64,000 nucleotides of DNA. Origin: Oscillospiraceae bacterium (GTDB lineage Bacteria; Bacillota; Clostridia; Oscillospirales; CAG-272). A program made the translations under genes and the position numbers. Positions 7,096 through 48,819 of the stretch are shown here, piece by piece. The stretch's first letter is position 1, and every line of letters starts with the position of its first letter. The DNA lies in the NCBI GenBank assembly GCA_015063695.1, contig SVTQ01000008.1, positions 1 through 64,000 on the forward strand. Reading direction: 5' to 3'. Under the pieces are notes generated by a model. It ran no database searches, was not told the origin of the DNA, and saw only the letters and a program-made list of their open reading frames with translations.

Positions 7096-7121
7096 GTAGG
7101 GGAGGATTCCATATCCTCCCG
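7096..7121 (+). repeat. GTAGGGG hairpin repeat (family 1), copy b
   Basis: GTAGGG, then stem GGGAGGAT/ATCCTCCC with loop TCCAT, then G. Identical to the copies at 14894-14919 and 15028-15053. Confidence 0.75.
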
Positions 7122-10565: not shown

Positions 10566-10842
10566 AAACGCCCCCGAAGGGGCGCTTCAGACCGAAGACA
10601 AACTTGGTATAACGCAGATGTGAGAAGAAAAGATTCTTCAAAACAATTATTTCTTGATGAAATCATCTGACATGGAAAAGGCGGGCAAAATGCCCACCAC
10701 ATCTGCTTTTGGCGAGTTTTTCCCTCTACCATAGGCAACTATGCCTACGAGGAAAAAATCGCCAAATCTACCTGCGTTTCTCTCAGTCTGATCCAGAGTG
10801 CAGACTTTGTCTGCACTCTGAAACGCCCCCGAAGGGGCGCTT
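10566..10842. mobile_element. 232-bp terminator-splitting element, copy A (233 bp), with duplicated terminator
   Basis: The core runs 10588-10820, beginning CAGACCGAAGAC and ending GTCTGCACTCTG. Directly repeated 22-bp hairpins (AAA, then stem CGCCCC/GGGGCG with loop CGAA, then CTT) lie at 10566-10587 and 10821-10842. The left one keeps a seven-base A-run (a T-run for minus-strand transcripts), so an original metH terminator has been split and its hairpin duplicated. Inside, GCAGATGTG pairs with CACATCTGC, TTGGCGA pairs with TCGCCAA, and the last 27 bases of the core form a 12-bp hairpin with loop TTT. No credible gene. The rest of this 417-base gap is promoter on the left and metH on the right. 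Confidence 0.75.
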
Positions 10843-14893: not shown

Positions 14894-14919
14894 GTAGGGG
14901 AGGATTCCATATCCTCCCG
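14894..14919 (+). repeat. GTAGGGG hairpin repeat (family 1), copy c
   Basis: Identical in all 26 bases to the copies at 7096-7121 and 15028-15053: stem GGGAGGAT/ATCCTCCC with loop TCCAT. Confidence 0.8.
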
Positions 14920-15027: not shown

Positions 15028-15053
15028 GTAGGGGAGGATTCCATATCCTCCCG
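15028..15053 (+). repeat. GTAGGGG hairpin repeat (family 1), copy d
   Basis: Identical to copies b and c; ends 30 bases before the start codon of the next gene, so it lies in or just before that gene's leader. Confidence 0.8.
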
Positions 15054-27853: not shown

Positions 27854-27914
27854 AACTATTTGAAGGTCGTGTCGGTTCGAGCGTTGTAAGTGCAGTTTAG
27901 CACAACGGACTTAA

Positions 27915-28188
27915 AAACAGTCCACCGGACTGTTTCAGAGTGTAGACAAAGTCTACACTCTGGGGCAGACTGAGAGAAACGCAGGTAGATTTGGCGATTT
28001 TTTCCTCGTCGGCGTAGTTATCTACGGTAGAGGGAAAAACTCGCCAAAAGCAGATGTGGCGGGCTTTTGCCCGCCTTTTCCATATCAAATAATTTCATCA
28101 AGAAATATTTACTTCCAACAAAGTTTTCTGCTCACATCTGCGTTATACCAAGTTTGTCTTCAGTCTGAAACAGTCCACCGGACTGTTT
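27915..28188. mobile_element. 232-bp terminator-splitting element, copy B (reverse orientation)
   Basis: Core 27936-28167, flanked by identical 21-base hairpins AAACAGTCCACCGGACTGTTT at 27915-27935 and 28168-28188. Relative to copy A it is inverted. Its end hairpin has compensating changes (GTGTAGAC/GTCTACAC in place of GTGCAGAC/GTCTGCAC). Confidence 0.78.
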
Positions 28189-28395
28189 TTGCCACGCCTA
28201 CGGCATGTGGCCGTCCTTTCGATTCCCCGTCAAATACGGGTCAAAGCAAAAAGAAAAGCACCTCGCTTGAGGTGCCTTCTTTTTGGTGACCCGTGGGGGT
28301 TCACTGTGGATTGAAGGTCGTGCCGAAATTCATTTCGGCGTTCACGGTCGTGTCGGTTCGAGCGTTGTAAGTGCAGTTTAGCACAACGGACTTAA

Positions 28396-28669
28396 AAACA
28401 GTCCACCGGACTGTTTCAGAGTGTAGACAAAGTCTACACTCTGAGGCAGACTGAGAGAAACGCAGGTAGATTTGGCGATTTTTTCATCGTCGGCGTAGTT
28501 ATCTACGGTAGAGGAAAAAACTCGCCAAAAGCAGATGTGGCGGGCTTTTGCCCGCCTTTTCCATATCAAATAATTTCATCAAGAAATATTTACTTCCAAC
28601 AAAGTTTTCTGCTCACATCTGCGTTATACCAAGTTTGTCTTCAGTCTGAAACAGTCCACCGGACTGTTT
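28396..28669. mobile_element. 232-bp terminator-splitting element, copy C (duplicate of B)
   Basis: Core 28417-28648 with the same 21-base hairpins at 28396-28416 and 28649-28669. It came with the tandem duplication rather than by a separate insertion. Confidence 0.78.
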
Positions 28670-28811
28670 TTGCCACGCCTACGGCATGTGGCCGTCCTTT
28701 CGATTCCCCGTCAAATACGGGTCAAAGCAAAAAGAAAAGCACCTCGCTTGAGGTGCTTTTCTTTTTGGTGACCCGTGGGGGGTCACTGTGGCTTGAAGGT
28801 CGTGCCGAAGT

Positions 28812-29330
28812 TTAATTTAGTAATTCAAAGTCTTCTTTCTTTATACGAAAGCTCATTTGTGTAGTTTTTTCTCCGGTAAAACAGTTTGTTTCTGTTTCAT
28901 CACCGTCGGGATGACGCACAAATCCTGTCTTGAGCAATACTTTCATACTATATTTATTATCGCAATAACAGCCTGCGGATATCTCATTATATTCGTAATG
29001 ATTAAATATATATGATAATGCCAATCTAAAAGACACGGTTCCGTAACCCATGTTTCTATATTTCGGATATATCCAGATAGCTAAGTCAGGACAAACCTCG
29101 TCTAAACCTAATCTGAGGACACCAACGTTTTCATTGCTATATTTATCTACTACAACGACCCAAAACTTAAAACGGTTTATATCATAATCTGAAAACTGCT
29201 CAAACGTATCAGTAAAAATACCGTTATATCCTTTTTGTGTATCAATGTCTTTCCAGCACATGTACATATCATGATCGTCGCCGTGTGTATACGGTCTCAA
29301 TCCGATTCTTTCATTTTCAATGATGAACAC
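28812..29330 (-). CDS. GNAT family N-acetyltransferase
   Basis: 172 residues. RIGLRPYTHGDDHDMYMCWKD is the usual RimJ/RimL-type start. NVGVLRLGLDEVCPDLAIWIYPKYRNMGYGTVSFRLALSYIF contains the acetyl-CoA loop (R/Q-x-x-G-x-G/A, here RNMGYG). The C-terminal CDNKYSMKVLLKTGF is the N..S..vl.K.GF motif. The acceptor is unknown (amine, protein N-terminus or aminoglycoside are all possible). AT-rich relative to the core genes and next to repeats, so probably acquired. Upstream partner: the four-helix-bundle gene, 24 bases away in the same direction. Confidence 0.85.
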   Translation of the reverse strand: MFIIENERIGLRPYTHGDDHDMYMCWKDIDTQKGYNGIFTDTFEQFSDYDINRFKFWVVVVDKYSNENVGVLRLGLDEVCPDLAIWIYPKYRNMGYGTVSFRLALSYIFNHYEYNEISAGCYCDNKYSMKVLLKTGFVRHPDGDETETNCFTGEKTTQMSFRIKKEDFELLN

Positions 29331-48241: not shown

Positions 48242-48521
48242 AAGCTCTCGGTACCCCGAGAGCTTCAGACTGAAGACAAACTCGGTATAACGCAGAAGTG
48301 AGCAGAAGAATTTGCATAAAGCAAATATTTCTTGATGAAATCATCTGATATTGAAAAGGCGGGCGAAAGCCCGCCACATCTGCTTTTGGCGAGTTTTTCC
48401 CTCTACCATAGACAACTATGCCGACGAGGAAAAAATCGCCAAATCTACCTTCGTTTCTCTCAGTCTCACTCAGAGTGTAGACTTTGTCTACACTCTGAAG
48501 CTCTCGGTACCACGAGAGCTT
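48242..48521. mobile_element. 232-bp terminator-splitting element, copy D
   Basis: Core 48266-48497 (same orientation as copy A). The flanking 24-base hairpins, stem AAGCTCTCG/CGAGAGCTT, are at 48242-48265 and 48498-48521 and differ by one loop base; both are in direct orientation. The A-run lies before the left copy and the T-run only after the right copy, so one terminator was opened and its hairpin doubled. Inner hairpins include GGCGGGC-GAAA-GCCCGCC and the 12-bp end hairpin. Confidence 0.8.
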
Positions 48522-48731: not shown

Positions 48732-48819
48732 GAGAACCCCAAAAATCATAAAGATTTTTGAGGACCCCTGCCGACGAGAACCCCAAAAATCATAAAGATT
48801 TTTGAGGACCCCTGCCGAC
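48732..48819. repeat. Two tandem 44-bp GAGAACCCC hairpin repeats (family 2)
   Basis: 48732-48775 and 48776-48819 are identical: GAGAACCCC, stem AAAAATC/GATTTTT around ATAAA, then GAGGACCCC and TGCCGAC. The stem differs entirely from the 46-bp units at 32952. Confidence 0.85.

Follow-up and report, generated by a model that had tools for sequence, protein, structure and literature searches.

The locus at positions 10566-10842 of the window (the whole stretch of 64,000 nucleotides of DNA that was analysed) raises the question of what kind of element can be found between two complete copies of one and the same terminator hairpin, and of how the hairpin came to be doubled. We regard it as likely, though not established, that the segment in between belongs to a family of mobile elements that are non-autonomous and insert at DNA hairpins, usually intrinsic terminators, which are recognised by shape; the hairpin is probably extruded, cut at its 3' feet and duplicated by the subsequent repair.

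Copies in the window and in the source genome

The window contains four copies of the element, two on each strand, all of which begin with CAGA and end with TCTG. They are surrounded by direct repeats of 22, 21, 21 and 24 bp, respectively, each of which is a complete hairpin specific for its locus. The original prediction, made from the window alone, had claimed the same four copies, coordinates and termini, duplicated hairpins of 22, 21 and 24 bp at three independent sites, and an A-run on the outer side of the duplicated hairpin; the copies and hairpins were all recovered, and the A-run was seen at 10566-10587. The two copies at 28 kb are located, together with both their hairpins, in a recent tandem duplication of 467 bp (27865-28330 and 28346-28812, 98% identity), so the window records three independent insertions. 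The features are listed below, with the strand in parentheses for the element and its parts (none is assigned to the target hairpins).

10566-10587: target hairpin, left copy, 22 bp, AAACGCCCCCGAAGGGGCGCTT; exact repeat of 10821-10842, A-run on its outer side
10588-10820 (+): element copy 1, 233 bp, CAGAC...CTCTG, without a convincing gene; folding z = -8.8 against shuffled sequences
10588-10613 (+): 5' strand of stem P1, CAGACCGAAGACAAACTTGGTATAAC, the near-invariant left end; pattern kept in three species of the genus
10614-10706 (+): P2, with the closing stem GCAGATGTG / CACATCTGC, from the predicted fold
10707-10766 (+): P3, long covarying stem-loop (alignments A2 and A3)
10765-10790 (+): 3' strand of P1, AATCTACCTGCGTTTCTCTCAGTCTG, a conserved motif paired with the left end in the fold
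10794-10820 (+): P4, perfect terminal hairpin CAGAGTGCAGAC-TTT-GTCTGCACTCTG, with a covarying 12-bp stem
10821-10842: target hairpin, right copy; direct repeat of 10566-10587
27915-27935: target hairpin, 21 bp, AAACAGTCCACCGGACTGTTT; flank of copy 2
27936-28167 (-): element copy 2, 232 bp, from sequence match
28168-28188: second copy of the 21-bp target hairpin; flank of copy 2
28396-28416: target hairpin within the tandem duplicate; flank of copy 3
28417-28648 (-): element copy 3, 232 bp, tandem duplicate of the copy-2 segment (98%), not an independent insertion
28649-28669: target hairpin; flank of copy 3
48242-48265: target hairpin, 24 bp, AAGCTCTCGGTACCCCGAGAGCTT; flank of copy 4
48266-48497 (+): element copy 4, 232 bp, from sequence match
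48498-48521: second copy of the 24-bp hairpin, the pair differing by one base within or beside the loop; flank of copy 4

All contigs of the genome from which the window is taken (G000, a metagenome assembly of 1.85 Mb in 45 contigs) were analysed. Full-length copies with both flanks on the contig number 26, and 25 of them have the same locus-specific hairpin on both sides. The copies at contig edges are concordant, as the ends of C25 and C32 share one hairpin, and so do those of C21 and C40. The only exception among the 26, C34:60518, is flanked by two different hairpins, and a few degenerate copies (C1:172, C34:8894, C44:67940, C28:9499) lack the duplication. The expectation that further copies would carry hairpin repeats was thus met by the full-length copies of this genome, except for the one above, but it fails for a small number of copies that are degenerate, truncated or flanked by mixed hairpins. 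Copies without a hairpin pair or with mixed hairpins are best read as products of decay or recombination; it must be kept in mind that every sequence used here comes from metagenome assemblies, in which repeats can yield chimeric joins. The search for exact direct repeats of at least 18 bp with a spacing of 225-360 bp throughout the genome returned 59 raw entries, of which 22 are flanks of the element, while the remainder are found within genes or in other short repeats (many are overlapping entries from one repetitive gene). The flank duplications in the window are no chance effect. A de novo search of the same genome for paired hairpins found this element to be essentially the sole content between the pairs.

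Other repeats were encountered as well. Dispersed short palindromes of the REP type (TAGGGGAGGATTCCATATCCTCCC) occur in the window at 7100-7120, 14898-14918 and 15032-15052, with similar units genome-wide. At C28:21780-22110 a stretch ending in CTCTCCTTCTCCGCC, which resembles the end of a tRNA gene, is repeated together with a terminator hairpin about 220 bp apart, with the element absent between them.

Conserved fold and relatives of the element

The element has no convincing ORF, and the Rfam search identified no family at the gathering score, group II introns included. Its predicted single-strand folding is far stronger than that of shuffled sequence, and corresponds to an architecture of four conserved stems, in which P1 closes the body and contains the invariant left motif (in copy 1 its 5' strand is predicted to pair with 10768-10790), and P2 is variable, its interior differing among copies and among species. 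The left-end motif is also present in inverted form in P4, and the ends form an imperfect terminal inverted repeat of about 15 bp (left CAGAC[TC]GAAGACAAA versus right reverse complement CAGAGTGTAGACAAA). The alignment of copies from the genus (A2) comprises 34 base pairs of P3 and P4, in 19 of which both sides have changed; in the order-wide alignment (A3, 69 distinct copies) 93% of the cells are Watson-Crick pairs. A C-A or A-C mismatch on the plus strand is a wobble pair on the minus strand, and the excess of such mismatches on the plus strand (87, versus 24 of the G-T type) suggests that the minus strand is the one that is folded and under selection. This evidence is only suggestive, as the asymmetry comes mainly from few columns in few lineages, and the cases confined to a single sequence are even (10 versus 11).

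The inner hairpins of P2 at seven loci of the related genome G077 (L045, L051, L065, L069, L089, L093, L099) have quite different sequences, all perfectly paired, although the copies otherwise resemble one another, which suggests fast paired change or replacement. Additionally, the P2/P3 region of some copies (L018, L019 and L027, i.e. copies from C15, C13 and C5, as well as C18:53053 and C18:146300) contains a second palindromic unit of ~40 bp, GTGAACCCC..AAACATTC..GAATGTTT..GAGGACCCC or AAGGGGTCCTCAAGTTAGC..GCTGACTTGGGGTTC, as if this unit likewise inserted at hairpins; units resembling it are present in the window near 48739-48804.

In two sister species of the genus, RUG14199 (G077) and RUG14272 (G122), the element is present in diverged copies that are arranged in the same way. 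The covariance model of P3 and P4 matched 75 of 395 genomes of the family and 40 of 394 genomes of the order. Inspection of individual loci revealed, in 26 genomes from five families outside the genus, an element built on the same plan (its ends being CAGACTGTCGAAAAAG... and ...CTCGACACGCTG) and flanked by a duplicated, locus-specific hairpin; this count covers only the inspected loci and excludes weaker matches of the covariance model in further families. For the exact left-end motif, the inspected matches in GTDB outside the genus were chance occurrences inside genes. Among viral contigs, the matches to the motif of the genus were not element-like, and the exact left-end and P4 patterns of the related sub-families gave zero matches.

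For several sites of insertion in G077 (e.g. L033/C31, L037/C18 and L081/C14) the orthologous gene end in G000 carries a single terminator, and the cross-species orthologues of sites bearing a copy showed no paired flanks. Such gene ends show that a single hairpin is the ancestral arrangement; they do not represent the identical site in its empty state, because the hairpin sequences differ between the species. The unoccupied orthologous terminators that had been anticipated are represented here only by single terminators at the corresponding gene ends of a different species.

Target hairpins, duplication length and truncated copies

The paired hairpins were scored at 66 sites in 29 genomes of the source and related species, where the duplication varies from about 18 to 38 bp and tracks the hairpin. 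The original prediction had stated that the duplicated length follows the hairpin instead of a fixed number, and had called for a search of the source and related genomes; both the length range and the hairpin duplications at these sites agree with it. In the 59 cleanest sites, 80-86% of positions are paired within the duplicated unit, compared with 36-51% immediately outside it, and the two edges of the unit pair with each other. The elements at L001-L004 are 99% identical, and their target hairpins have no sequence in common except for the A...T pair at the foot. Guidance of insertion by the target sequence is ruled out, since near-identical copies are located in unrelated hairpins. Of 77 scored sites, 67 have a T as the last base of the left flank, and 69 have an A as the first base of the right flank. 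Most sites are beside gene 3' ends (32 between convergent genes, 20 with rightward genes only, 15 with leftward genes only and 4 between divergent genes), and no bias was found in the orientation of the element relative to its neighbouring genes. Hence the target looks to be a stem-loop, in the usual case a terminator, that has an A-T pair at its foot and whose length dictates that of the duplication. The claim that a non-autonomous mobile element targets the hairpin or cruciform itself is supported by the duplication of whole hairpins and the lack of a shared target sequence, while the cutting remains an inference.

At three sites (L026, L051, L380) the two hairpin copies have loops that are reverse complements of each other; at L344 each copy is perfectly paired, yet the two differ in two pairs. 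The hairpins were thus processed in the folded state at some time, either during the insertion or afterwards. Mismatches between the arms (747 stem pairs considered) occur mostly in the left copy, where they affect one arm (23 pairs) as well as the other (16 pairs). Simple decay would likewise leave differences in both arms and accounts for the mismatches as well as re-templating does, so we claim neither systematic re-templating of the right copy nor fold-back synthesis via 'corrected' arms. Two different hairpins flank a single element at C34:60518, L045, L372 and L124, and the left hairpin is absent from L371 and L379. Concerning the latter type, L379/L320 and L371 (G152) retain the right hairpin only, and at L379 the flanks have just an A-run in common; this lineage may use a different mode of insertion or may have lost one hairpin.

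Three copies from G077 are truncated on the right, with the left end and both hairpins kept: L122 ends in P3, L123 in P2 and L125 about 50 bases into the element. Their breakpoints are at differing internal positions and exhibit short homology to the hairpin, followed by the full second hairpin. No left-truncated copies with the right end and the duplication were found; the sole candidate, L033, turned out to be an internal deletion with both ends and both hairpins kept, and L054 is of the same kind. Since copies truncated on the right have both hairpins and none truncated on the left were seen, the copying looks polar, with a start at the left hairpin. This rests on three clean truncated copies from one species.

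Proposed mechanism, rival explanations and significance

The mobility of the element, duplication of the whole hairpin, absence of target-sequence specificity, conservation of the fold and some polar truncation are directly evident from the copies described above. We propose that the target hairpin is probably extruded as a cruciform or exposed as single strand at a fork, and that the stem is probably cut on each strand at its 3' foot, although no enzyme has been identified and both steps are inferred. Both broken ends would then carry the entire hairpin as a 3' overhang; element DNA would be joined between the overhangs, and repair would copy each of them, so that both sides end up with a full hairpin, however long it is. 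In the element itself, the top strand terminates at the 3' foot of P4 and the bottom strand at that of P1, so the donor fits the same cutting rule as the target, and a cut at the 3' foot on each strand is the simplest rule, inferred as it is, that fits both. The truncated copies suggest that synthesis of the new top strand could start from the 3' end of the left hairpin, with the element's folded minus strand as the template. A single-strand intermediate and an enzyme supplied in trans are also inferred.

The nature of that enzyme is where the rival explanations differ. The element could be a SINE-like retroelement, i.e. a structured minus-strand RNA (with its 3' end corresponding to the left end) reverse-transcribed from the 3' end at the nicked foot of the hairpin by a reverse transcriptase acting in trans, for instance that of a group IIC intron. 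The right-truncated copies with intact duplications resemble 5' truncations of target-primed reverse transcription, the wobble bias points to the minus strand, the conserved architecture is RNA-like, and group IIC introns insert after intrinsic terminators (PMC4424553). Nonetheless we consider this explanation unlikely: the search for reverse transcriptases (Pfam in 4 and later 56 genomes, plus a motif scan of the ORFs of G000) found no RVT_1 in G000 and G077, both rich in copies, and no ORF with a reverse transcriptase motif in G000, while RVT_1 is present in 9 of 35 element-bearing versus 7 of 21 element-free genomes, and all Rfam families remained below the gathering score. A Y1 (HUH) enzyme of the IS200/IS605 or REP-associated type could instead transpose the element as single-stranded DNA, with the hairpin duplicated during repair of the fork; this would account for a folded single strand and for strand polarity, and enzymes of this kind that act on DNA hairpins are known (PMC8266576). 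Y1 genes are present in G000 and G077 and, among the 58 genomes searched, in 12 of 37 with the element versus 3 of 21 without it (divergent Y1 proteins might escape the search), but none was detected in many copy-rich genomes (G104, G266, G541, G056, G731). Known Y1 transposition involves no target duplication, and we give this possibility little weight. The four Y1 (RAYT-like) genes of G000 are C13:39790, C14:39069, C34:38704 and C20:96, two of them paralogues with about 81% identity; the start of the C13 reading frame overlaps a different short palindrome, GGGCGGATATAGAATCCGCCC, not this element.

An ordinary MITE moved by a DDE transposase with a long staggered cut and a mere preference for terminator-like A...T palindromes would agree with the short, imperfect terminal inverted repeat (CAGACTGAAGACAAA versus CAGAGTGTAGACAAA) and with the T and A at the flank edges. 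We find it improbable, since the duplication of about 18-38 bp tracks the hairpin length in contrast to the fixed stagger of DDE enzymes (PMC4940900), the right-truncated copies with duplication lack the right end that such an enzyme requires, and G000 contains no autonomous partner. There, neither an autonomous copy (hairpin pairs up to 8 kb apart, partnerless ends and repeated genes were searched) nor a larger insert between paired hairpins was found. That no transposition took place, and the hairpin pairs with the intervening segment arose from local duplication or recombination between existing repeats, is a very weak candidate: the mixed-hairpin copies (C34:60518, L045, L372, L124) do indicate recombination between copies or assembly joins, but one and the same sharp-ended 232-bp core lies between dozens of unrelated, locus-specific hairpins, both within one genome and across dozens of species. 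Finally, integration of the Cas1 type, as known from CRISPR spacer acquisition, could duplicate a palindromic repeat; there, Cas1-Cas2 duplicates the repeat in its entirety, and one proposal attributes the long stagger to a cruciform (PMC4940900). However, Cas1 was detected in 3 of 37 element-bearing versus 4 of 21 element-free genomes and is missing from G000, G077 and G122, which brings this explanation close to refutation. Neither reverse transcriptase nor Cas1 tracks the element, and Y1 transposase does not track it closely; the enzyme that would cut the extruded hairpin is either unrecognised and encoded elsewhere, or absent from these assemblies.

Comparison with known systems leads to no precise counterpart. 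To our knowledge, hairpin duplication has not been found for group IIC introns, which insert at a DNA motif of intrinsic terminators and use a stem-loop rather than a long homing site (PMC4424553). The element too sits at terminator hairpins and gene 3' ends; however, these introns need or encode a reverse transcriptase, whereas the element has CAGA...TCTG ends, a duplicated hairpin and no reverse transcriptase tracking it. Their exclusion in the original prediction, on the grounds of ends that are not intron-like and the absence of known duplication, is upheld, with no reverse transcriptase in G000. Cas1-Cas2 integrates at both ends of a cruciform-capable palindromic repeat and duplicates the entire palindrome (PMC4940900), a duplication that is also seen here, but it uses one fixed leader-adjacent repeat, a spacer of 30-40 bp and Cas1, whereas the element has a fixed length of 232 bp, enters any hairpin and has no link to Cas1. 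MITEs are derived from insertion sequences and share their fixed duplication length. The bacterial ones (RUP, Correia-like, QMITE, Chunjie) are short, non-autonomous, intergenic, multi-copy and foldable, and have short inverted repeats at their termini as well as direct repeats (PMC10969869); the element is similar in size and copy number, but its duplication is the hairpin itself, and no parent insertion sequence was found in G000. REPs are short and are not known to cause target duplication, unlike the element, which duplicates its target and is not closely tracked by Y1 genes. REP/REPIN sequences with their Y1 enzymes (RAYT) involve palindromic single-strand folding and strand-specific recognition, and in integron attC cassettes the folded bottom strand is the recombining form (PMC8266576). 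The attC is, however, the cassette's own site, joined by IntI to attI without hairpin duplication, whereas the element targets arbitrary terminators. No description of such an element was found in the open-paper literature, which is not proof of its absence.

In most DNA transposition the length of the target duplication is fixed and set by the enzyme; here it is apparently set by the folded target. We tentatively extend the proposal, at somewhat less than even chances, to an order-wide class of elements that would enter extruded hairpins in the form of a folded RNA or DNA single strand, by means of an unidentified structure-specific enzyme, with the fold of the hairpin alone setting the site and the duplication. 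If the proposed mode of insertion is true, each event would copy an entire transcription terminator, whatever its sequence or length, and would leave a terminator on each side of the element; the copies would constitute a natural record of how hairpins or cruciforms extrude at the terminators of living cells, and would point towards a structure-specific integration enzyme that is not yet known. The element also accounts for a repeat that is common but unannotated in gut and rumen Clostridia, and that breaks their genome assemblies.
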